Of a DNA stretch of 64,000 nucleotides, positions 44,209 to 54,120 are shown in pieces (within the stretch, counting starts at the first letter, position 1; every line of letters starts with the position of its first letter). The position numbers were made by a program, and so were the translations under genes. The DNA lies in the NCBI GenBank assembly GCA_019636755.1, contig JAHBWZ010000003.1:310001-374000 (forward strand). Direction: 5' to 3'. The notes under the pieces are model-generated. The model was not told where the DNA came from, did not search any database, and worked only from the letters and a program-made list of their open reading frames with translations. Origin of the DNA: Phycisphaeraceae bacterium. GTDB lineage: Bacteria; Planctomycetota; Phycisphaerae; Phycisphaerales; SM1A02.

Positions 44209-47200
44209 TCAGGTCGCTTCCGGAAGCGACGCCGTGCCTCCCGATGCCGCGGATGCGGCAGGTCCTGCGCCCGGTCCTCGCCCGTGCACCAGCGGCGCTG
44301 CGATCGCGATCGAACTGTACGTGCCGACGATGATTCCGGTGAGCAGACAGAACGTGAACGGCCGGATGCCGCTGCCGCCTTCCGCGTACATGATCACGAC
44401 CGCGATGAGCGTGGTGCCGGACGTGAGCAGCGTGCGGCTGATCGTCTGGTTGATCGAGAGATTGACGACGCGCGTCGTGGCCAGCGGGAGCTTGCCGCGG
44501 TTCTCGCGGATGCGGTCCAGCACGACGATCGTGTCGTTGAGCGAGTACCCGATGATCGTCAGCAGCGCCGCGATCACGCCGAGTTCGATGCGGAACGGTT
44601 CGATGCCCAGGGCACGACCGATTCCCGTCTCCGCCAGCGTGCCCGTCCATGCCAGCAGCCCGAGTGCGATCACGACGTCGTGGCCCAGGGCCGCGACCGC
44701 CGCCAGCGAATAGCGGAGCGAGCCGAAGCGGACCCAGATGTAGATGAGAATGCCGAACAGCGAGAAGCTCACCGCGACGACCGCGTTCGCCTTCAGCGTC
44801 TGCGCGATGGCCGACGAGAACGTGCTCACCTGGTCCAGGCTCGACGGCTGCAGCAGCGCGCGGCGCGCCAGCCCCCATTCCGCGGTCGCGACTTCGCGCT
44901 GCCATACCTCCAGCGAGAGCGTCCCGGGCACATCGAGGTAGCTGCGCGACGCGTCGAGCACCAGCACGGCCAGTTCCGTGTAGCCCCTGCGCGGATCCTC
45001 CGGGTCGACCGCCGTCACGCCGACGACCTCGCATCGCCGGCCCGCGAGTCGCTGGAAATCAGGCTGGTTCCGCATCCGGTCGATCCGGCCCTGGACCTCG
45101 GCCGGCGATGCCGCCGGCTGCACGTCCTGCAGGAGCAGCGCCACGCCGCCGATGAACGGTGCGGTGCGCTGGCGCAGACCCGGACGGCCGATCACCTGCC
45201 CGAGTTCCGACTGCCCGGCCGAGATCGGATACACGCGCGTCGGCCCGCCGAACGGCGAGTCGCTCTCCGCGCCGGCAAACCGGATCGGCGGCACGACATC
45301 CAGGTCGCCGCCGAATGCCTCGATGATCGCCTCGACGACGACCGCCGCGTTCGTCGACTCATCGCCGATGCCCTCGGGGCTGGCGACCTTGATCTGGAAC
45401 GCCGACGCGCCGAGCGTGCCGTCGGGACCCGTCGCGGTGTCGCCGACCGTGTACACGGTGGCATTCGCCATCTCGCGCAGGATGAGGCGCCGGACGCGTT
45501 CCCGCTCATCCGTGGCCGCGGCCGGATCCGGCGCCTGGGCGCCGATGGCACGCACCCGGGAGAGTACGGAGCCGGTGCCGACATGGGGCAGTATGCGCCG
45601 CCCGTCCCCCTCCACCGCCGTACGCATCACCAGCGAGACGCCGCCACGGAACTCCGTGTCGAGCAGGTCCGCGCCACGGGACGTGATCGCGATGACGGAG
45701 AGCAGCATCGCCACGCCGCTGGCGACGAAGAACACCGGTCGCAGCCGGATCCAGTCGATCGCCGGCTCCAGCGCCCGGTGGAGCGACGGGATCGCGATGG
45801 GCAGCATCGAGAGCCGGCGGATCTTCAGACGGTCCACGTAGATATGGAAGACCTGCCGCGTCACGAAGAGGGCGGTGAAGAGCGTGGCCAGGATGCCGAT
45901 GGTCAGCGTGAGCGCGAAGCCCTTGACCTCGGTCGTCGCGGTCTGGAAGAGCGCGAAACACACGATCAGGTTCGTGATGTTCCCGTCCATGATCGTGCTG
46001 AGCGCCTTGGAGTAGCCCAGCCGGACGCTCGTGCGCAGATCCTCCCGGTTGTTGATGAGTTCCTCGCGGATGCGCTCGTAGATCAGCACGTTGGCGTCGA
46101 CGGCCATGCCGATGGTCAGCACGATCCCGGCGAGTCCCGGCAGCGTGAACGTGCCGTCGATCGCCATCATCACGCCGAAGATGATGATGCCGTTCAGCAC
46201 GAGCGCCAGGTTCGCGACGAGACCTGCCACGAAGTAGTACGCCGTCATGAACACCGCGACGGCGATGATCGCGAGGATGAACGCCTCCCGGCCTCGCTGC
46301 AGGTTGTCGGCACCGATCGACGGACCGAGCACGCTGGTGGAGATAGGGCTCTCCGAGAGACGCGCCGCAAGCGAACCCGCGCCGAGCACCTTGACGAGGT
46401 AATTGATGTCCGCCTGGGTGAACTTGCCGGTGATCTGGCCGCTGGAGGTGATCTGGCCCCGGATGGCCGGCGCCGAGTAGATCATGCCGTCGAGCAGGAT
46501 CGCCATCGGCCGGCCCATGTTGCCGCCCGTCAGGCGTCCCATCATGCCGGCGCCGGCGGCGTCGAAATTGAAGCCGACCGCCGGGCGACTGAGTTCGTCG
46601 ATCGTCCGGAAGGCCTGCGTGAGCGACCACTCGACCGCGCCGCCGTGCACCATCGACCGCGCGGGTGTGGTCCAGAGCAGCAGGTAGATCCCCCCGTCGT
46701 AGCGCTCGGCGATCAGGCCGTAACGGCTGGCGAAATACGATGCCGGATCCCGCTCCATCGTGGCGAGTTCAGCCGGCGTGTCGTACCACTGCTCCATCTG
46801 GTGAATCGGATACCAGCGGGCGGTGCCGGCGGGGACGTTCTCCGGACCACCCTCGAGGAGCCGCTCCCGGAGGCGCGCTGCGTCAACACCTTCCGTGTCC
46901 GCCGCCTGCACGGCGATCCGGAACTCCAGCACACCCGCACCGCGCAGGAGCCGCTCGAGATCCTGCGGATCATCCAGGCCGGTCCGGCGCGCTGCGTATG
47001 CGTCATGCGCGGTCACCAGTTCGCGCAGCGAATCGGCGAGATCCGGGTACTCCGAAAGCAGGACGGTGACGGCCTCCTCGCGGAGACTCTCGCGCATCAC
47101 GTACCGGCCGCGTTCATCGAGGACCGGCCGCCCGTCCGGATCCAGCGTCCGCTGGGGCGTCGTCGGCAGCGCGAGCGTCCGGCGGAGCCGTGCTTCCGGC

Positions 47201-47802
47201 AGGCTCACCAGCAGGACCGACTCGTACAGTTCCTGGTACTCGATCGTCGTCTCCGCGACGTCGAACTCGACGCTCCGCCGGATCTCCGGCGTCGCGTCCG
47301 CCGGAAGCGCGGCGAGCGAACGCCGGGCCGCCTCCCGCTCGTCGTACTTCCGCTGCAGCGACTCGATCGATGTGCGCCGGGCCGAGCCTTCGCGGCCGCC
47401 GAACCGCGCCACCGCGGTTCCCTCACGCAGCGCCTCGTCCAGTTCGCCCCGGGAGATCTCGGCCTCGATCACGACCGCGCGCAGCCGTCCCTCGAACGCG
47501 CGCTGGAGTTCGAGGACCTCCGGTGTCGGCAGCGGCATCACGACCTCGATGCGATCGCGCCCCAGCGGCTCCATCGAGATGTCGTAGACGCCGCGGGGGT
47601 TGACGCGATCCTTCAGGACCTCGATCACGCGCTGGAGCGTCGTCGACGGGTCCGGATCGTTCGCCGCGATGTCGACGGTATAGATCAGGCTGACGCCGCC
47701 GCGGAGGTCCTTGCCCAGGCGCAGATCGCGACCGAGGATCGCCGCGAGGCAGAGGCCGACGATCACGGCGATCAGCAGGAGCTTCTGAATCTGATTCTTC
47801 AT
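44209..47802 (-). CDS. secDF: Protein translocase SecDF, fused
   Basis: 1197 residues; SecD and SecF are joined in one chain. SecD: an N-terminal helix (QKLLLIAVIVGLCLAAILG), DLRLGKDLRGGVSLIYTVDI, GRDRIEVVMPLPTPE, FNFDAAGAGMMGRLTGGNMG, VLGPSIGADNLQRGREAFIL and GLAGIVLTIGMAVDANVLIYERIREEL. SecF begins near residue 690 with EFRGGVSLVMRT and continues with LRYSLAAVAALGHDVVIALGLL and IIGYSLNDTIVVLDRIRENR. It uses the proton-motive force to finish Sec-dependent export. It follows yajC by 92 nt, the standard order. An extra ~150-residue domain in each half suggests larger periplasmic parts than in E. coli. Confidence 0.95.
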   Translation of the reverse strand: MKNQIQKLLLIAVIVGLCLAAILGRDLRLGKDLRGGVSLIYTVDIAANDPDPSTTLQRVIEVLKDRVNPRGVYDISMEPLGRDRIEVVMPLPTPEVLELQRAFEGRLRAVVIEAEISRGELDEALREGTAVARFGGREGSARRTSIESLQRKYDEREAARRSLAALPADATPEIRRSVEFDVAETTIEYQELYESVLLVSLPEARLRRTLALPTTPQRTLDPDGRPVLDERGRYVMRESLREEAVTVLLSEYPDLADSLRELVTAHDAYAARRTGLDDPQDLERLLRGAGVLEFRIAVQAADTEGVDAARLRERLLEGGPENVPAGTARWYPIHQMEQWYDTPAELATMERDPASYFASRYGLIAERYDGGIYLLLWTTPARSMVHGGAVEWSLTQAFRTIDELSRPAVGFNFDAAGAGMMGRLTGGNMGRPMAILLDGMIYSAPAIRGQITSSGQITGKFTQADINYLVKVLGAGSLAARLSESPISTSVLGPSIGADNLQRGREAFILAIIAVAVFMTAYYFVAGLVANLALVLNGIIIFGVMMAIDGTFTLPGLAGIVLTIGMAVDANVLIYERIREELINNREDLRTSVRLGYSKALSTIMDGNITNLIVCFALFQTATTEVKGFALTLTIGILATLFTALFVTRQVFHIYVDRLKIRRLSMLPIAIPSLHRALEPAIDWIRLRPVFFVASGVAMLLSVIAITSRGADLLDTEFRGGVSLVMRTAVEGDGRRILPHVGTGSVLSRVRAIGAQAPDPAAATDERERVRRLILREMANATVYTVGDTATGPDGTLGASAFQIKVASPEGIGDESTNAAVVVEAIIEAFGGDLDVVPPIRFAGAESDSPFGGPTRVYPISAGQSELGQVIGRPGLRQRTAPFIGGVALLLQDVQPAASPAEVQGRIDRMRNQPDFQRLAGRRCEVVGVTAVDPEDPRRGYTELAVLVLDASRSYLDVPGTLSLEVWQREVATAEWGLARRALLQPSSLDQVSTFSSAIAQTLKANAVVAVSFSLFGILIYIWVRFGSLRYSLAAVAALGHDVVIALGLLAWTGTLAETGIGRALGIEPFRIELGVIAALLTIIGYSLNDTIVVLDRIRENRGKLPLATTRVVNLSINQTISRTLLTSGTTLIAVVIMYAEGGSGIRPFTFCLLTGIIVGTYSSIAIAAPLVHGRGPGAGPAASAASGGTASLPEAT

Positions 47803-47826
47803 CGTGGGAGACCGCCCTGAGGGGCT

Positions 47827-47852
47827 GCCGGCCCGTCACGTGGCGGGCCGGC
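47827..47852 (-). promoter_or_regulatory. Intercistronic hairpin between yajC and secDF
   Basis: GCCGGCCCG (47827-47835) and CGGGCCGGC (47844-47852) form a perfect 9-bp stem with an 8-nt loop, 25 nt before the secDF start. No T-run follows. It may slow or stabilise the message between the two genes. Confidence 0.45.
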
Positions 47853-47894
47853 GGCATGCAGATCGATGGAACGGTGCAGGAACGGACAAGGACG

Positions 47895-48341
47895 TCAGCG
47901 CTCGTCGACGGCGCCGGCCGGAACCTGCGCCGGCGCCGCATCGCGGGCATCCCGCGAGTCCCGCGTCTCGCGGGAGCCGATGACCTGCTGGATCGCGGAT
48001 CGTGCGAATGTCAGCCGCGTGTTGGACGACTCATCGACCTTCAGCACGATCGTGTCATCGCGCAGCTCCACGATCGATCCGATGATGCCGCCGATCGTCT
48101 GCACGCGATCGTGCTTCCGGAGCGACTGGAGCAGTGCCTCGCGGCGCTTCTTCTCGCGCCGCGGCCCGAGCATCGCGACGATCAGCATGAACGCCACGAA
48201 GGCGAACATGATGATGAAGAACGGGTCGAGGCCGCCCGAGGGACGCTGTCCCGCGGCGGGCGTGGAAGACCCGGCCGCATCCGGCAGGCCGGCCGCGCCG
48301 TCCTGGGCCAGCACGAGGAGGGACGAAAGGAATTCGGTCAT
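47895..48341 (-). CDS. yajC: Preprotein translocase subunit YajC
   Basis: 148 residues. A short periplasmic N-terminus, one membrane helix (PFFIIMFAFVAFMLIVAML, about 41-59), then PRREKKRREALLQSLRKHDRVQTIGGIIGSIVELRDDTIVLKVDESSNTRLTFARSAIQQV, the full YajC signature. It associates with SecDF and SecYEG. It is longer than the usual ~110 residues at both ends (Ala/Pro-rich). It sits between tgt and secDF, the widely conserved tgt-yajC-secDF order. Confidence 0.95.
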   Translation of the reverse strand: MTEFLSSLLVLAQDGAAGLPDAAGSSTPAAGQRPSGGLDPFFIIMFAFVAFMLIVAMLGPRREKKRREALLQSLRKHDRVQTIGGIIGSIVELRDDTIVLKVDESSNTRLTFARSAIQQVIGSRETRDSRDARDAAPAQVPAGAVDER

Positions 48342-48422
48342 GGGAGGTGTATTCGTGGGATCGATTCGTGGTTCCAGCCCGGCCGTGTTCCGCGCACGCG
48401 AACATCCGGCCGCCTGCTTCCC

Positions 48423-49709
48423 TCACGATGCCTCTGCCGCCGGCAGCCCGGCCACGGGCCACCTCCGGGCGAAGCAAGACCAGCCATCATCCCGGATCGC
48501 CCGTCGGATGTCCAGCATGAGGCGCTGGAAGTGCCGGACGTTGTGGATGCTGACGAGCGTGGGACCGAGCATCTCGTCGGCCTGGAAGAGGTGGCGCAGG
48601 TAGGCCCGTGAGAAGCCGCCGGCGCACGCCTCGCAGTCGCACCCGGACTCGATCGGGCGGTCGTCCTCGGCGTGGGCGGCGTTGCGCAGGTGCAGCCGGC
48701 CGGTCTGCGTAAACGCGTAGGCGTTTCTGCCGTTGCGCGTCGGCAGGACGCAGTCGAACATGTCCACGCCGGCCCGGACCGCCGCCACGATGTCGCGCTC
48801 GTACCCCACGCCCATCAGGTATCGCGGCCGATCGTCGGGCAGGCGCGGCGCGGTGAACGCGACGACGGACCGGATCTGCGCCGGCCCCTCGCCCACCGCA
48901 ACGCCACCGATGGCATATCCAGGGAGATCGAATCGAGTCGTGACCACGCTGGCCGCCTCCTCGCGGAGCGCGAGGTCGGTCCCGCCCTGCACGATCCCGA
49001 AGAGCGCCTGCCGATCGGCACTCCGGTGGGCGGCGACGCATCGCGCCAGCCACCGCACGGTGCGATCGTGGGCGTCGCGAAGCCGTTGTGCGTACTCAGC
49101 GCGATTCCGAGGTGCCCGGCCCCCGCGCCGCCCGCCCCTCCACCGCGGAGGCGTGCCGGCGCCGGTCAGCGGCGGGGCATCGCGGATCGACCCGACCGGG
49201 CGCCCGATGGACGCCATGGGGTCCGGATCCCCGTCTGCGGCGGCCGGCAGTGCGGGCGGGCAGTCATCAAAGGCCATGATGATGTCAGCGCCGAGATTCC
49301 GCTGGATCTCGATCGAGCGCTCCGGACTCAACCGGATGAGCGCCCCGTCCACGATGGAGCGGAAGAGGACGCCGTCCTCATCCAGCGTCGACCGGTCCGC
49401 GAGCGAGAACGCCTGGTACCCGCCGGAGTCCGTCAGGATCGGGCCGTCCCACCGCATGAAGGCGTGCGACCCGCCGCGCCGCGCAATGAGTCCGTCGCCC
49501 GGGCGCAGCAGCAGGTGCCATGCGTTGTTGAGCAGGATCTGCGTGCCGGTGCCCCGAACCTGCGCCGGCGTCAGCCCCTTGACGGACGCCTTGGTTCCGA
49601 CGGGCATGAAGGCCGGCGTATCGAAGGACCCGTGCAGCGTCTCCACCCGGCCGGCACGGGCACGGGAACTGCGGCAGCGGACCAGGATCTCGAATCGCAG
49701 CGCAGTCAT
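48423..49709 (-). CDS. tgt: tRNA-guanine transglycosylase
   Basis: 428 residues. Exchanges guanine-34 for preQ1 in queuosine tRNAs. FDTPAFMPVGTKASVKGLTPAQ, the catalytic LTDSGGYQAFSL (Asp), GADIIMAFDDCPP, QALFGIVQGGTDLALREEAA, GYAIGGVAVGE, PRYLMGVGYERDIVAAVRAGVDMFDCVLPTRNGRNAYAFT and zinc ligands SGCDCEAC...H are all present. The family has ~370-380 residues; the excess is an Arg/Gly/Pro-rich insertion of about 45 residues (PDPMASIGRPVGSIRDAPPL to GRRGGRAPRN) after the DDCPP motif. It starts 11 nt after rhomboid, in the same direction. Confidence 0.95.
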   Translation of the reverse strand: MTALRFEILVRCRSSRARAGRVETLHGSFDTPAFMPVGTKASVKGLTPAQVRGTGTQILLNNAWHLLLRPGDGLIARRGGSHAFMRWDGPILTDSGGYQAFSLADRSTLDEDGVLFRSIVDGALIRLSPERSIEIQRNLGADIIMAFDDCPPALPAAADGDPDPMASIGRPVGSIRDAPPLTGAGTPPRWRGGRRGGRAPRNRAEYAQRLRDAHDRTVRWLARCVAAHRSADRQALFGIVQGGTDLALREEAASVVTTRFDLPGYAIGGVAVGEGPAQIRSVVAFTAPRLPDDRPRYLMGVGYERDIVAAVRAGVDMFDCVLPTRNGRNAYAFTQTGRLHLRNAAHAEDDRPIESGCDCEACAGGFSRAYLRHLFQADEMLGPTLVSIHNVRHFQRLMLDIRRAIRDDGWSCFARRWPVAGLPAAEAS

Positions 49710-49720
49710 GCCCGTCTCTG

Positions 49721-50866
49721 TCAGCGACCACCGCCGCCGGACTCGGAGACGCGTCGAAGCGTCTCCCGCTCGCGCGGCGTCAGACTGGCGAGCCCCTGGG
49801 CATGCACCTTGTCGAGGATGCGGTCGATCTCCGCCTCCGGAACCGCCCGGTCACCGCGCGGAGCCGGCGCTCCGGCGCGCGCCGGACCGCCCGCCCGGCG
49901 CGCCCGGGCCGTCGGGTCGAACCGACCGAGGAAGTCGAAGAAGTCATGCAGCAGGTGCGGGTGCCGGATGAAGTACCACCCCGCGAGCGCCCCCCCGAGA
50001 TGTCCCGCCTCGCCGCCGGCGTTGCGCCCGCCGGTCAGGATCACCAGGAACGCAAGACCGACGATCACGTAGGCGAGCGTGCGGAGTTTCATCGGGATGA
50101 TGAACATCAGCAGCACGGTCGCGTTGGGCGCCAGGTAGGCCCCGGCCATGAGAACGCCGTAGACGCCCGCCGAGGCGCCGACCAGCGGCGTCATCGGGTT
50201 GTTGAACAGCAGCCCGGGGATCGGCGGCGCATCCGGGAACAGGATCTGCGCGACGTACCCCAGCACGTTCAGCAGCGTGTACAGGAGCGCGCCACAGATG
50301 CCGCAGAGCAGGTAGAACGCGAGATACCGCCGGCGACCGAGCCGTCGTTCGACCATCGGGCCGAAGAAGAACAGCCCCAGCATGTTCAGCAGGATGTGCC
50401 CGAGCATCTCCCGCGAGTGCAGGAACTGGAACCCGATGAGGCGCCAGACCTGGAGCCCGAAGAACCCGCGCTCGGTCGAGTAATGCAGGATGCTCTCGAG
50501 GAACGGCATCTCCCGATAGGTCACACGACCGACCTCGATCAGCGAGCCGTCCGCCGTCCGCCCGAGCAGCGGGCCCCGCTCAATTCCGGGTGACCGGCGA
50601 TCACCACCGACGACCGCCCGCGGTCCCTCCACGATGCTCGCCGGATCCACCGCCGCCGCTCGATCGGGGAAGTACAGGCGCTCCATGAGGAGCGTCCGAT
50701 GGGGCAGGAACGCATCGACCACGAACACGGCGACGCAGATCGCGATCAGCCACGTGTTGACCGACCAGAATCGGAATGCAGACCACGACCCGCCACCGGA
50801 CGGTGGTCGCCAGGCGCGCCCGTCGCCGCCGGACTCACGAAGATATGGACGGTCTGCCAGCCCCAT
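49721..50866 (-). CDS. Rhomboid-family intramembrane serine protease
   Basis: 381 residues. VNTWLIAICVAVFVVDAFL is the first helix. A ~100-residue loop follows, then WRLIGFQFLHSREMLGHILLNMLGLFFFG (HxxxN oxyanion region), TPLVGASAGVYGVLMAGAYLAP with the GxSx nucleophile Ser, and GEAGHLGGALAGWYF with the catalytic His. The cytoplasmic tail ends in AEIDRILDKVHAQGLASLTPRERETLRR, the short helical motif often seen at rhomboid C-termini. It begins 9 nt after the M50 gene. Substrates are unknown. Confidence 0.92.
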   Translation of the reverse strand: MGLADRPYLRESGGDGRAWRPPSGGGSWSAFRFWSVNTWLIAICVAVFVVDAFLPHRTLLMERLYFPDRAAAVDPASIVEGPRAVVGGDRRSPGIERGPLLGRTADGSLIEVGRVTYREMPFLESILHYSTERGFFGLQVWRLIGFQFLHSREMLGHILLNMLGLFFFGPMVERRLGRRRYLAFYLLCGICGALLYTLLNVLGYVAQILFPDAPPIPGLLFNNPMTPLVGASAGVYGVLMAGAYLAPNATVLLMFIIPMKLRTLAYVIVGLAFLVILTGGRNAGGEAGHLGGALAGWYFIRHPHLLHDFFDFLGRFDPTARARRAGGPARAGAPAPRGDRAVPEAEIDRILDKVHAQGLASLTPRERETLRRVSESGGGGR

Positions 50867-50875
50867 AAAGGTCGG

Positions 50876-52237
50876 TCATCCTTCGGCGGAATCATCCCTG
50901 CGCGGTGACTTTCCCGTGGGGCCGGACCGCGCCGCGTCATCGCGCCGGCGCTTGCGTTCGGTCTCGCGCGCCAGGAGCCCTCGCTCCGCCTCGGTCAGGC
51001 CGGCCAGGCCGACGGTGGAGATCCGGGCCAGGAGGTGGTCGAGCAGCGCGTCGTCGTCCGCCGTGTCGGCCCGCCCGACCGGGCGTGCGTCCGGCGGGCC
51101 GGGACCCTCGTCGGGCTCCGGCGCCTGCGGAGCGCGCCGTCCCGGATCACCACGGCGACCGGTCACCGCGCCGGCGTCCGCATGCCGCGCATCCTCCGCC
51201 ACGCCTGCGCGGCCACCGGTGCTTGGGGCGAGCGGGCGCCCCATGCCATCGAGCCGCCCCTCCATCCAGGCCTGGTGGCGCAGTCGCTGCCACCCGAGGG
51301 CGGCGCCGATCGCGCCGAGCGCGGTCAGTGTCCAGACCGAGAGCACGATGCCGGCGAGCGCGACCATCGGACCGAAGACGACCCCCACCTGACCGACCCG
51401 TCGCGCCGCGCCGTCGACATCGCCGCGTGATCCGGCCACGGCGCGCAGCAGTCGCGCCCCGTCGAGCGGTTCCATCGGGAGCAGGGTCAGCAGCATCACC
51501 GTGAAGTTGACGCGGTGAAATGTGGCGAGCAGCAGGAGCCACCACGGCTGACCGCCGTGCTCGCCCCGCAGTGCGAGGACACCGAACTCGGGCCGGGAGA
51601 GCGGCGACGGCAGGGCCACCGTCTCCACGACACCCGTCAGCAGGTAGAGCACGGGCGCGATGACAAGGAAGAGCGCGAAGTTCGCCAGCGGACCCGCGGC
51701 GGCCACGATGAACCGTGACCGCCAGTCGCGCGGCAGGAGATAGCCACCCAGGCCGCCCAGCGGCCAGAGGATGATCTCGCCCACCCGTCCCCCGAGTCGA
51801 CGACACGCCGAGAGATGACCGGCTTCGTGGATCGCGAGGGAGACCAGCAGGCACGCGAGCGACAGCCCGACCAGCCGGACGTCGATCGGATCAACGACGG
51901 ACGGATCCGGCGCGGGAATCGCGCGGGCGATCTCGATCAGGAGGAACAGGGGCAGCGCTGCATGCACCCGCAACCCGGCGCCGGCGCATGTGCCGAGCGG
52001 GAAGGACCATGACAGCGGGTTCTCCGCGACGGGGCGCACCGGGATCCAGCGTCCGCCCGCGTCGCCGTGCCCGCGCGCCGTCGCGGCGTCGCGCCGGGCA
52101 TCACTGCGACGGGTGCCCCGGGCCCCCGGCTCCGGGTCGGGCGTTCGATCATGCACCGCCCGCGCCCGTCCTGCTGCAGAAACCCCGATCGCGCCGCCCC
52201 ACGCCGTGGGCGCCTCGCGCCCGGCCATGCCGGGCAT
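50876..52237 (-). CDS. Site-2-type M50 membrane metalloprotease
   Basis: About 453 residues from ATG 52237, the least certain point: the first ~75 residues are Arg/Ala/Gly-rich and ATG 52228 is an alternative. Hydrophobic helices follow, with LVSLAIHEAGHLSACRRLGGRVGEIILWPLGGLGGYL containing the HEAGH zinc motif. MLLTLLPMEPLDGARLLRAVAG has the PxDG-type third ligand. FIVAAAGPLANFALFLVIAPVLYLL is a core helix. A ~170-residue polar tail ends in DALLDHLLARISTVGLAGLTEAERGLLARE, matching the tail of the neighbouring rhomboid. It probably cleaves membrane proteins in the bilayer. Confidence 0.9.
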   Translation of the reverse strand: MPGMAGREAPTAWGGAIGVSAAGRARAVHDRTPDPEPGARGTRRSDARRDAATARGHGDAGGRWIPVRPVAENPLSWSFPLGTCAGAGLRVHAALPLFLLIEIARAIPAPDPSVVDPIDVRLVGLSLACLLVSLAIHEAGHLSACRRLGGRVGEIILWPLGGLGGYLLPRDWRSRFIVAAAGPLANFALFLVIAPVLYLLTGVVETVALPSPLSRPEFGVLALRGEHGGQPWWLLLLATFHRVNFTVMLLTLLPMEPLDGARLLRAVAGSRGDVDGAARRVGQVGVVFGPMVALAGIVLSVWTLTALGAIGAALGWQRLRHQAWMEGRLDGMGRPLAPSTGGRAGVAEDARHADAGAVTGRRGDPGRRAPQAPEPDEGPGPPDARPVGRADTADDDALLDHLLARISTVGLAGLTEAERGLLARETERKRRRDDAARSGPTGKSPRRDDSAEG

Positions 52238-52279
52238 CGGGTTGGACGGGCGATCGCACGGCCGGGATGATAGCCACGC

Positions 52280-53119
52280 GTGGTTGCCGATCCCGTCGAA
52301 CTCACCCCCAGGGCGCACGACTGCATCGTCCGGTTCGTCGACGTACACCGGCGCTTCGGGTCGCGGCGCGTGCTCCAGGGACTCAGCCTGGATGTACCCA
52401 GGCGTCAGACGCTGGTCGTCCTCGGACCGAGCGGCTGTGGCAAGAGCGTGATGCTCCGGCACATCGTGGGCCTGGTCCGCCCCGACGCCGGCGAGGTCTT
52501 CGTGGACGGCGCCCCGGTGCATCGGCTGTCGGGCCGCGCCCTGGGCCCGATCCGCCGGCGGATCGGCTTCCTGTTCCAGGGCGGCGCACTCTTCGATTCG
52601 ATGACGATCGGCGAGAACGTGGAGTTCCCGCTCCGCGAACATGCGCGGATGGACCGCGCCGCACGGCGGGCGCGGGCGGACGACCTGCTCGACCTGGTCG
52701 GACTCGCCGACACGCGTGATCGAATGCCCGCCGACCTGTCGGGCGGACAGCGCAAGCGCGCCGCACTCGCGCGCGCCATCGCGCTGGATCCCCCGCTCGT
52801 GCTCTACGACGAACCCACGACCGGACTCGATCCGATCCGCGCCGAGGCGATCAACGAACTCATCCTGCATCTGCGCCGCACGCGCGGCGTCACCGGGATC
52901 GTCGTCACGCACGACATCGGAAGTGCGCTCAGGATCGCCGATGAGACCGTCCTGCTGCACGAGGGACGCGTCCGGTTCCGCGGCTCGCCGCAGGCGCTCC
53001 GGACCTCGTCGGATCCCGTCGTGCGCCGGTTCCTTGCCGGTGAGCCGGACTGGATCAGGCCCGATCCCCCCGCCGTCCCGAACGCGACGCGGGGCACGCC
53101 CGCGGGGGGTGCGCCGTGA
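52280..53119 (+). CDS. mlaF: ABC transporter ATPase, MlaF-like
   Basis: 279 residues. Walker A LGPSGCGKSVMLRHIVGL, Q-loop FLFQGGALFDSMTIGENVEFPL (the GGALFDS form is typical of MlaF/Mkl ATPases), signature LSGGQRKRAALARAIA, Walker B LVLYDEPTTGLDPIRA and switch VVTHDIGSAL. With MlaD- and MlaE-type partners it powers phospholipid movement between membranes. GTG 52280 was taken as the start. The adjacent gene is MCE/MlaD-like and overlaps by 4 nt, but no MlaE permease gene is in the window. It is divergent from the M50 protease gene with only 42 nt between them. Confidence 0.93.
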   Translation: MVADPVELTPRAHDCIVRFVDVHRRFGSRRVLQGLSLDVPRRQTLVVLGPSGCGKSVMLRHIVGLVRPDAGEVFVDGAPVHRLSGRALGPIRRRIGFLFQGGALFDSMTIGENVEFPLREHARMDRAARRARADDLLDLVGLADTRDRMPADLSGGQRKRAALARAIALDPPLVLYDEPTTGLDPIRAEAINELILHLRRTRGVTGIVVTHDIGSALRIADETVLLHEGRVRFRGSPQALRTSSDPVVRRFLAGEPDWIRPDPPAVPNATRGTPAGGAP

Positions 53120-54120
53120 GGGAAGCGGTCCGCGACACGCTGCTCGGCGCGACCGTCCTCGGGGCCCTGGCGGCGGGCACCTGGCTGCTCATCCGCTTCG
53201 GCGAGTCGACACTCCTGGCACCACCTCGCTACGAGATCCGCCTGGAGACCGACGGCGCCGCCGGGCTGCGCGTGGGAAGCGCGGTGGAGATGCACGGCAT
53301 CCCGATCGGGACGGTGCAGGCGATGCACCTGGTCGCCGATCGTCCCCGCCCCGTCGAGATCGTGCTGCACATCGACGATACCGTGCGGATTCCCGGGGAC
53401 GTCCGGCCCGCCGTCCGGGCCAACGTGCTCGGCGGCGCGGCGACGCTCGAACTGGACCCGAGCCCGACGGACGGGCCGCCGCTGGCCGTGGACGGCACCG
53501 CTCGGATCAGCGGGAGGATGCGGTCGCTCCTGCTCGAGGAGACGCTCGACCGGATCGACCGCCTGGGCGAGCCGCTCGCGGAGGCCGCACGGCGCTTCGC
53601 CGATCTGAGCACCACGTATCTCGAACTCGGTGATGAACTCGGGCAGCTCATCACCTCCGTGTCCCGGCCCGGCGATGTCCCGCTGGGCGACATGCTGGCG
53701 CGCCTCGATGCGACGATCACGGAGACCGGCCGGGCCGCGACCGCGATCCGCGGCTGGCTGGAAGATGCGTCGCTCCGCCGGTCGGTCGAGCAGACGATCG
53801 CGGATACGGGCAGCGCGGCTCGCCTCGTCGCCGAGGCCGCCGGCGACGCGAGCGACCTCGCGCGGGCGACGCAGGACCAGCTCGCCCGCCTGACGATGAG
53901 CATCGCGCAGGGGACGGACGCGCTGACGACGGTCATGGGCCGCGTCGACGGGATGATGCGCGACATGCGCGAGGGCACGGGCACGATGGCGCTGCTGCTC
54001 AACGACCCGACGCTCTATCTCTCGCTGGTGGACGCAAGCAGCCGGCTGGAGCTTGCGCTGCGCGAGGCGCGCCTGCTCATCGAGAAGCTGCGCGCCGAAG
54101 GGATCCGGGTCGGACTCTGA
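53116..54120 (+). CDS. mlaD: MCE/MlaD-family phospholipid-binding protein
   Basis: 334 residues. One N-terminal membrane helix (TLLGATVLGALAAGTWLLIRFG, about 8-29). The MCE domain is YEIRLETDGAAGLRVGSAVEMHGIPIGTVQAMHL through GDVRPAVRANVLGGAATLELD. The C-terminal half is a long helical part (about 140-334, many Ala/Asp/Thr) resembling the tube-forming segments of other MCE proteins. It binds lipids in the periplasm for an Mla-type system. GTG 53116 overlaps the mlaF stop (GTGA), so the two are coupled. Convergent with kbl. Confidence 0.9.
   Translation: MREAVRDTLLGATVLGALAAGTWLLIRFGESTLLAPPRYEIRLETDGAAGLRVGSAVEMHGIPIGTVQAMHLVADRPRPVEIVLHIDDTVRIPGDVRPAVRANVLGGAATLELDPSPTDGPPLAVDGTARISGRMRSLLLEETLDRIDRLGEPLAEAARRFADLSTTYLELGDELGQLITSVSRPGDVPLGDMLARLDATITETGRAATAIRGWLEDASLRRSVEQTIADTGSAARLVAEAAGDASDLARATQDQLARLTMSIAQGTDALTTVMGRVDGMMRDMREGTGTMALLLNDPTLYLSLVDASSRLELALREARLLIEKLRAEGIRVGL

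Follow-up and report, generated by a model that had tools for sequence, protein, structure and literature searches.

Two intramembrane proteases of unrelated classes, a site-2 type (M50B) metalloprotease and a GlpG-type rhomboid encoded by adjacent genes, end in a common C-terminal segment in the 64,000-nucleotide stretch of a Phycisphaeraceae genome analysed here (the window), and profile comparisons show the two tails to be one homologous domain, Pfam DUF6576 (PF20216). The domain is strongly conserved, occupies the extreme C-terminus of both proteins and is restricted to these two genes in this genome. From such sequence features a shared docking role appears plausible, and about an even chance is given to the specific proposal that the DUF6576 hairpin is a cytoplasmic docking module which serves membrane-protein quality control by assembling the rhomboid and the site-2 protease (S2P), either at a common partner or with one another. 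One conserved handle on two unrelated protease classes constitutes a direct bait for a common partner in the recruitment of bacterial intramembrane proteases to their substrates, and an SRP-like third carrier of the tail suggests where to look for it. The component families are known, and it is the tail-sharing combination that is new: the literature searched yielded no paper naming DUF6576 or PF20216, no report of this domain on an S2P-type M50 or on a stand-alone SRP M-domain protein, no description of a rhomboid and a site-2 protease sharing a tail, and nothing relevant on intramembrane proteases of Planctomycetes or on rhomboids alongside yajC, secDF or tgt.

The two proteases and their locus

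The rhomboid (S54), a product of 381 residues, scores 82.1 bits against its Pfam family (cut-off 22.6) and carries the catalytic dyad, with the Ser (in GASAG) and the His both present in 89/89 aligned gene pairs, window included. Its AlphaFold2 (AF2) model (pLDDT 90.7) matches the GlpG structure 2irv in Foldseek with an E-value of 1.7e-4. Catalytic residues and fold thus place it with the GlpG-type rhomboids, from which it differs in having the DUF6576 hairpin and, in the model, a beta-rich insert that separates membrane helices one and two. The second protease reaches 50.2 bits against Peptidase_M50 (cut-off 27.2), and both the HExxH motif and the distal Asp (PLDG) are found in its translation. 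Among 89 aligned M50 proteins the first and second His are kept in 85 and 79, respectively, the Glu in 86 and the distal Asp in 87, with two gaps at HExxH. The AF2 model (pLDDT 82.1) has the S2P fold, its matches being 3b4r (E 6.8e-8) and SpoIVFB, 8vjm (E 8.3e-6); MjS2P and SpoIVFB (M50B) share the HExxH and PLDG motifs and rank first among solved structures in the sequence and fold comparisons alike, the difference being that the window protein ends in the DUF6576 hairpin. In SpoIVFB and many S2Ps it is a CBS domain that occupies the C-terminus. Judged from their sequences, both proteases look active. By analogy with their families, both proteins are expected to have a cytoplasmic C-terminus, with the rhomboid active site lying toward the outer side of the membrane and the S2P site toward the cytoplasm. 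No NCBIfam family was found above cut-off for the rhomboid, or at an E-value of 0.01 or better for the M50 protein.

The two genes precede tgt, yajC and a fused secDF on the same strand (Table 1), with 9 nt between the M50 and rhomboid genes and 11 nt between the rhomboid gene and tgt. Coordinates and Pfam assignments, all five families (Rhomboid, Peptidase_M50, TGT, YajC and SecD_SecF_C) being above cut-off, agree with the order and spacing that an earlier, sequence-only reading had described. The two tail strings quoted in that reading are also present in the translations, the first in the rhomboid and the second in the M50 protein.

Table 1. Features of the protease locus (positions in the window)
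Feature	Position	Strand	Basis
M50B (S2P) intramembrane protease gene	50876..52237	-	Peptidase_M50; HExxH + PLDG; MjS2P/SpoIVFB closest solved relatives; C-terminal DUF6576-type tail
M50 protein tail, predicted two-helix hairpin, DUF6576-like	50945..51055	-	M50-tail profile E 1.8e-9; rhomboid-tail HMM 21.8 bits; AF2 helices
GlpG-type rhomboid intramembrane serine protease gene, C-terminal DUF6576	49721..50866	-	Rhomboid 82.1 bits; DUF6576 38.7 bits; GlpG 2irv fold match
DUF6576 tail of rhomboid, predicted two-helix hairpin	49742..49852	-	PF20216 over cut-off; AF2 helices
tgt, queuine tRNA-ribosyltransferase	48423..49709	-	TGT 443.5 bits
yajC	47895..48341	-	YajC 63.6 bits
secDF, fused	44209..47802	-	SecD_SecF_C 205.6 bits, SecDF_P1_head 77.4 bits

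A scan of positions 47600 to 52700 found no terminator-like site on the coding strand and no promoter-like site between the two protease genes; a single promoter-like site, upstream of yajC, falls within tgt (48514-48486; 0.3 expected by chance). Where the genes are clustered, the protease pair is probably co-expressed with tgt-yajC-secDF. The M50 frame was read from an ATG at 52237 to a stop at 50876. This start is doubtful, because the matches of relatives mostly set in somewhere from residue 18 to residue 75 of the frame. The real start may be the GTG at 52039, since it lies near the point at which three M50 relatives have their initial Met, two residues ahead of a conserved WS. The position of the start has no bearing on the tail. 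On the divergent side, from 52280, the genes encode an ABC transporter ATPase and a protein with an MlaD domain.

A homologous domain at the end of both proteins

The rhomboid tail matches DUF6576, a Pfam family of uncharacterised function, with 38.7 bits (gathering cut-off 27.3). The M50 tail of the window falls short of the gathering score (13.2 bits, E 0.5), a threshold exceeded by many of the M50 tails in relatives, and it was missed by the Pfam scan because it has diverged too far for the DUF6576 model. A hidden Markov model (HMM) made from 75 rhomboid tails alone nevertheless matches 51/52 M50 proteins, the window's included, across 81 loci (80 from 79 relatives, plus the window). The window M50 tail obtains 21.8 bits and the remaining matched M50s at least 27.7, against a top score of 9.2 bits over 20 shuffles of M50 tails; the sole M50 without a match is that of genome G048. 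Six of the 81 rhomboids in these first loci have no match to the same HMM, three of them being frames that reach a contig end and the others (L108, L092 and L109) tailless.

For the reverse comparison, 42 M50 tails of other genomes (A3), without the window's tail, were made into a profile, which retrieved from the whole own genome the rhomboid tail (E 3.6e-14) and the window M50 tail (E 1.8e-9) with no further credible match, the next hit having an E-value of 0.22. All 42 A3 tails match DUF6576 individually, and a profile-profile comparison of M50 with rhomboid tails (hhalign) gives a probability of 99.6% (E 1.7e-24). The sub-threshold Pfam score of the window M50 tail is what could speak for a chance or low-complexity resemblance; with independent profiles agreeing both ways, the shuffles and the hhalign result, that explanation is ruled out for practical purposes. 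The common tail claimed in the sequence-only reading is thus borne out, as is its retention in orthologues, on which that reading had made the claim depend: besides the 51/52 M50 matches, six positions are near-invariant in 89 gene pairs. Gene conversion between the tails was also considered and is not supported, there being no identical tail common to both classes; for about 226/274 tails the nearest neighbour is of the same class.

The 89 non-redundant pairs, picked because both tails score above 12 bits, maintain the pattern L-x-K-x4-G-x3-L-x3-E-x3-L in M50 and rhomboid tails. The respective counts (M50/rhomboid, of 89) are 89/88 for the first Leu, 87/89 for Lys, 89/89 for Gly, 89/89 for the second Leu, 88/89 for Glu and 89/89 for the last Leu; the window M50 has Arg in place of the Lys. 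In the full alignments of 49 M50 proteins (A1) and 69 rhomboids (A2), these tail columns stand among the invariant or near-invariant ones beside the catalytic residues. The tail, about 35 residues long, is followed by a median of only 6 (rhomboid) and 7 (M50) residues after the matched part. The AF2 models place helices at 315-328 and 335-348 in the rhomboid tail and at 328-347 and 354-375 in the M50 tail (model numbering), each preceded by a low-confidence stretch, so that the tail is predicted to form a hairpin made up of two short helices and attached through a flexible linker. The invariant residues may serve the hairpin's own fold. A structure search with the tail returned no credible solved relative, its hits being two ubiquitin thioesterase chains (E 1.3 over 14 residues).

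A genome-wide profile search located the tail only on the window rhomboid and the window M50, and none was found on the second rhomboid (C2) or at the other M50 places (C1, C7 and C15) of the genome. Since these other family members lack it, the tail marks one rhomboid and one M50, encoded by neighbouring genes, rather than whole families.

Tails and gene order across Planctomycetota

DUF6576 was detected in 277/294 sampled genomes of the phylum. In other orders of the same class, each of ten genomes has one hit, its carrier class unassigned. A further sample comprised 23 genomes of 20 other families that were picked for having at least two DUF6576 hits, and which for that reason says nothing on frequency. 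Their 55 hits fall on rhomboids (27) and M50s (23) as assigned by HMMs, with five left over; in Pfam these five correspond to a rhomboid, a doubtful rhomboid below cut-off, a SpoIIM protein with weak DUF6576, an SRP_SPB protein and an unassigned one. The tail occurs on both a rhomboid and an M50 in 20 of the 23 genomes. A control genome, Bacteroides ihuae, has DUF6576 over cut-off.

A third carrier is found in family f22, where a stand-alone SRP M-domain protein without GTPase ends in the DUF6576 tail. Such proteins were found in 7/7 searched genomes of the family, six with 21.0-27.0 bits and one with 8.5 bits against the rhomboid-tail HMM; Pfam, run on six of the seven, assigned SRP_SPB in 6/6, while DUF6576 exceeds its cut-off in two of them and stays under it in the other four. 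Close to the M-domain carrier of genome G093 there is a full-length frame that we take to be ffh. In the class of f22, the remaining five genomes gave M-domain matches without tail, plus one tailed rhomboid. SRP M domains bind hydrophobic segments, and the third carrier therefore points to membrane-protein handling.

For the other families, the surroundings of the tailed genes were inspected in 41 loci from 22 genomes, with flanks of at most about 6 kb that in several cases stop at a contig boundary. Not one of these loci has a hit to tgt, yajC or secDF, or contains both tailed proteases; in one locus (L347) the rhomboid adjoins a short M50 frame without tail. Four non-protease clusters recur as neighbours, each in 4 to 7 of the 41 loci. 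As these families keep the tails with the genes unlinked, the shared tails extend more widely than the shared gene cluster.

Within the window's order the picture is one of frequent linkage. The arrangement M50-rhomboid-tgt-yajC-secDF occurs in 36/81 loci and its variant with the proteases reversed, rhomboid-M50-tgt-yajC-secDF, in 3/81. A further 23/81 show rhomboid-tgt-yajC-secDF and lack a tailed M50 in the stretch, although in G010 and G043, two of the genomes concerned, such an M50 is located on a different contig. The remaining 19/81 are incomplete, without linkage or truncated at a contig end. At the level of the 81 genomes, own included, both tailed proteases are present in 50, only the tailed rhomboid in 27, only the tailed M50 in 3, and neither in one, a genome 55% complete. 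Among the M50-only genomes, G052 is unambiguous, its tailed M50 being adjacent to a rhomboid that has no tail; G019 may have both, because one of its DUF6576 places (G019:C73) is unclassified, and the M50 of G075 lies at a contig start. From the 27 rhomboid-only genomes and G052 it follows that neither tail strictly needs the other.

A second set consisted of the best 80 of 376 M50 relatives in GTDB, 20 of which repeat earlier loci. The M50 tail exceeds 12 bits in 80/80 (lowest 12.4, next 23.5), a count that leans toward tailed M50s because the ranking query contained the tail. A tailed rhomboid is present in the stretch in 64 of these best 80, after the M50 in 54 and before it in 10. Of the 16 loci lacking one, 9 have a contig end near the M50, on one side or both, and the other 7 reach about 8 kb to either side of it. 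Most record titles of the 80 loci name Planctomycetes, some give no group, and a few read Limnohabitans or Verrucomicrobiia, which are presumed to be mislabelled bins. The gene-order survey that the sequence-only reading had proposed thus finds the two tailed proteases to be frequent neighbours in the window's order, even with their order flipped. Both sets of counts indicate that the M50-rhomboid pair is common without being obligatory, and that its place upstream of tgt is common without being needed.

That reading had also tied the proteases closely to SecDF and YajC, and here the survey is not in its favour. If the proteases belonged to the SecDF-YajC export machinery, with the tail docking on YajC or SecDF, linkage would be expected wherever tailed proteases occur. 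It is seen in most of the 81 loci, including the 36 with the full co-directional order and the 23 without a tailed M50 in the stretch, but it was not seen in any of the 41 other-family loci, some of them truncated by contig ends, or in 9 of the 64 GTDB pairs, which have no tgt in the stretch (in one of them, L191, the stretch ends 191 bases behind the pair), while in L175 tgt is oriented away from the pair. Moreover, tgt-yajC-secD-secF is an old and common bacterial cluster, so a position upstream of it is weak evidence for coupled export. A coupling of the proteases to SecDF or to export is therefore weakly supported, and docking on YajC or SecDF appears quite improbable.

Possible roles of the shared tail

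In the proposed docking mechanism, the cytoplasmic hairpin would bring the rhomboid and the S2P-type metalloprotease to the same partner, or together. With the rhomboid site directed toward the outer face and the S2P site toward the cytoplasmic face, the two enzymes could then cleave and remove faulty or left-over stretches of membrane protein at the sites of membrane-protein synthesis or dismantling. The adjacency of the two genes, which survives order flips (3/81 loci; 10/64 GTDB pairs), speaks for docking. The unlinked genes of the other families and the single DUF6576 hit, of unassigned carrier, in each of the ten genomes from other orders of the class weigh against it. Strict pairing is contradicted by the occurrence of either tail without the other and by the tails of one genome being barely more alike (45.5% identity) than those of the nearest other genomes (44.4%). 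Co-variation between the two tails is weak (partial Mantel r 0.16, a value reached by 0/2000 permutations, with phylogeny not fully controlled). A common third partner accordingly fits the unpaired tails and the weak same-genome similarity better than an obligate rhomboid-M50 dimer does, and the SRP M-domain carrier suggests that such a partner handles nascent or misplaced transmembrane segments. A more elaborate form of the docking proposal, to be held only tentatively, is that DUF6576 marks a planctomycete triage hub for membrane proteins. Through this hairpin a cytoplasmic receptor would recruit the rhomboid and the site-2 protease, joined in one family by an SRP M-domain paralogue holding transmembrane segments, and a segment could then be cut from both sides of the membrane and handed on.

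The same observations can be read without a third partner. The hairpins might self-associate, two tails forming a four-helix bundle that joins the rhomboid with the S2P or each enzyme with itself, as would suit the frequent adjacency of the genes in either order, the identical invariant residues of both tails and the fact that short amphipathic hairpins often need a partner for stability. The near absence of extra similarity between same-genome tails is at odds with this, and so is the persistence of either tail in genomes devoid of the other, although homodimers would explain the latter; on balance self-association seems rather doubtful. Slightly less probable still, and in our judgement unlikely, is that the tail acts solely on its own enzyme, through gating, membrane contact or stability, being a generic C-terminal hairpin that has spread with no shared partner. 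Its presence at the end of unrelated proteins, the SRP M-domain protein among them, and the lack of strict pairing are compatible with such a role, whereas its occurrence in the own genome on exactly two genes, which are neighbours, is not what a generic element would suggest, and the low-confidence linkers preceding it suit reaching for a partner better than gating.

For the docking proposal there is a partial precedent in Bacillus subtilis, where YqgP, a rhomboid, interacts with FtsH, for which it serves as substrate adaptor (PMC7231995). The likeness lies in a bacterial rhomboid working with another protease in membrane-protein quality control. The differences are that the partner is the AAA protease FtsH, that YqgP has an N-terminal metal-binding domain and a C-terminal extracellular TPR domain, and that the parts of that report consulted describe no tail shared with an S2P (PMC7231995). 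The YqgP-FtsH case shows that membrane proteins can be passed on to a second protease by a bacterial rhomboid (PMC7231995).

Tail carriers outside the two protease classes

The DUF6576 tail (Pfam PF20216), the predicted two-helix hairpin that ends the window's rhomboid and M50 protease, also terminates stand-alone SRP M-domain (SRP_SPB) proteins without the GTPase in the Planctomycetota family f22. In one relative's genome (G093), a full-length frame, which from its sequence we take to be ffh-like, lies close to the tailed SRP_SPB protein.

A SpoIIM-family membrane protein presents, close to its N-terminus, a weak DUF6576-like segment (15.5 bits, E 0.02) that may be distantly related to the tail.

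Unusual carriers among relatives' loci

At L092 (genome G052), a rhomboid without the tail is directly followed by an M50 protease with it, which is a clear case of the M50 tail being retained beside a tailless rhomboid. A short contig-end frame, with a tail score of 34.2 bits, matched neither the rhomboid nor the M50 HMM and may be the end of a rhomboid gene cut by the contig end.

Features in the window

In the AlphaFold2 model of the window rhomboid, a beta-rich insert separates predicted membrane helices 1 and 2. Immediately upstream of the M50 gene, and divergent from it, lies an ABC transporter ATPase/MlaD-domain gene pair (Mla-like lipid transport).

Positions of the features described
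Feature	Location	Strand	Remarks
SRP_SPB + DUF6576 tail protein	L289:8085-8726	-	GTPase absent; family f22
Further SRP_SPB + DUF6576 tail proteins	L300, L301, L302, L303, L304, L312		GTPase absent; family f22
SpoIIM-family protein	L248:631-1821	-	
Contig-end frame	L150:1-258	+	
Window rhomboid gene	window 49721-50866	-	
Beta-rich insert of window rhomboid	residues about 28-91 of model		confidence mostly high
ABC transporter ATPase + MlaD-domain protein genes	window 52280-54120	+	Pfam
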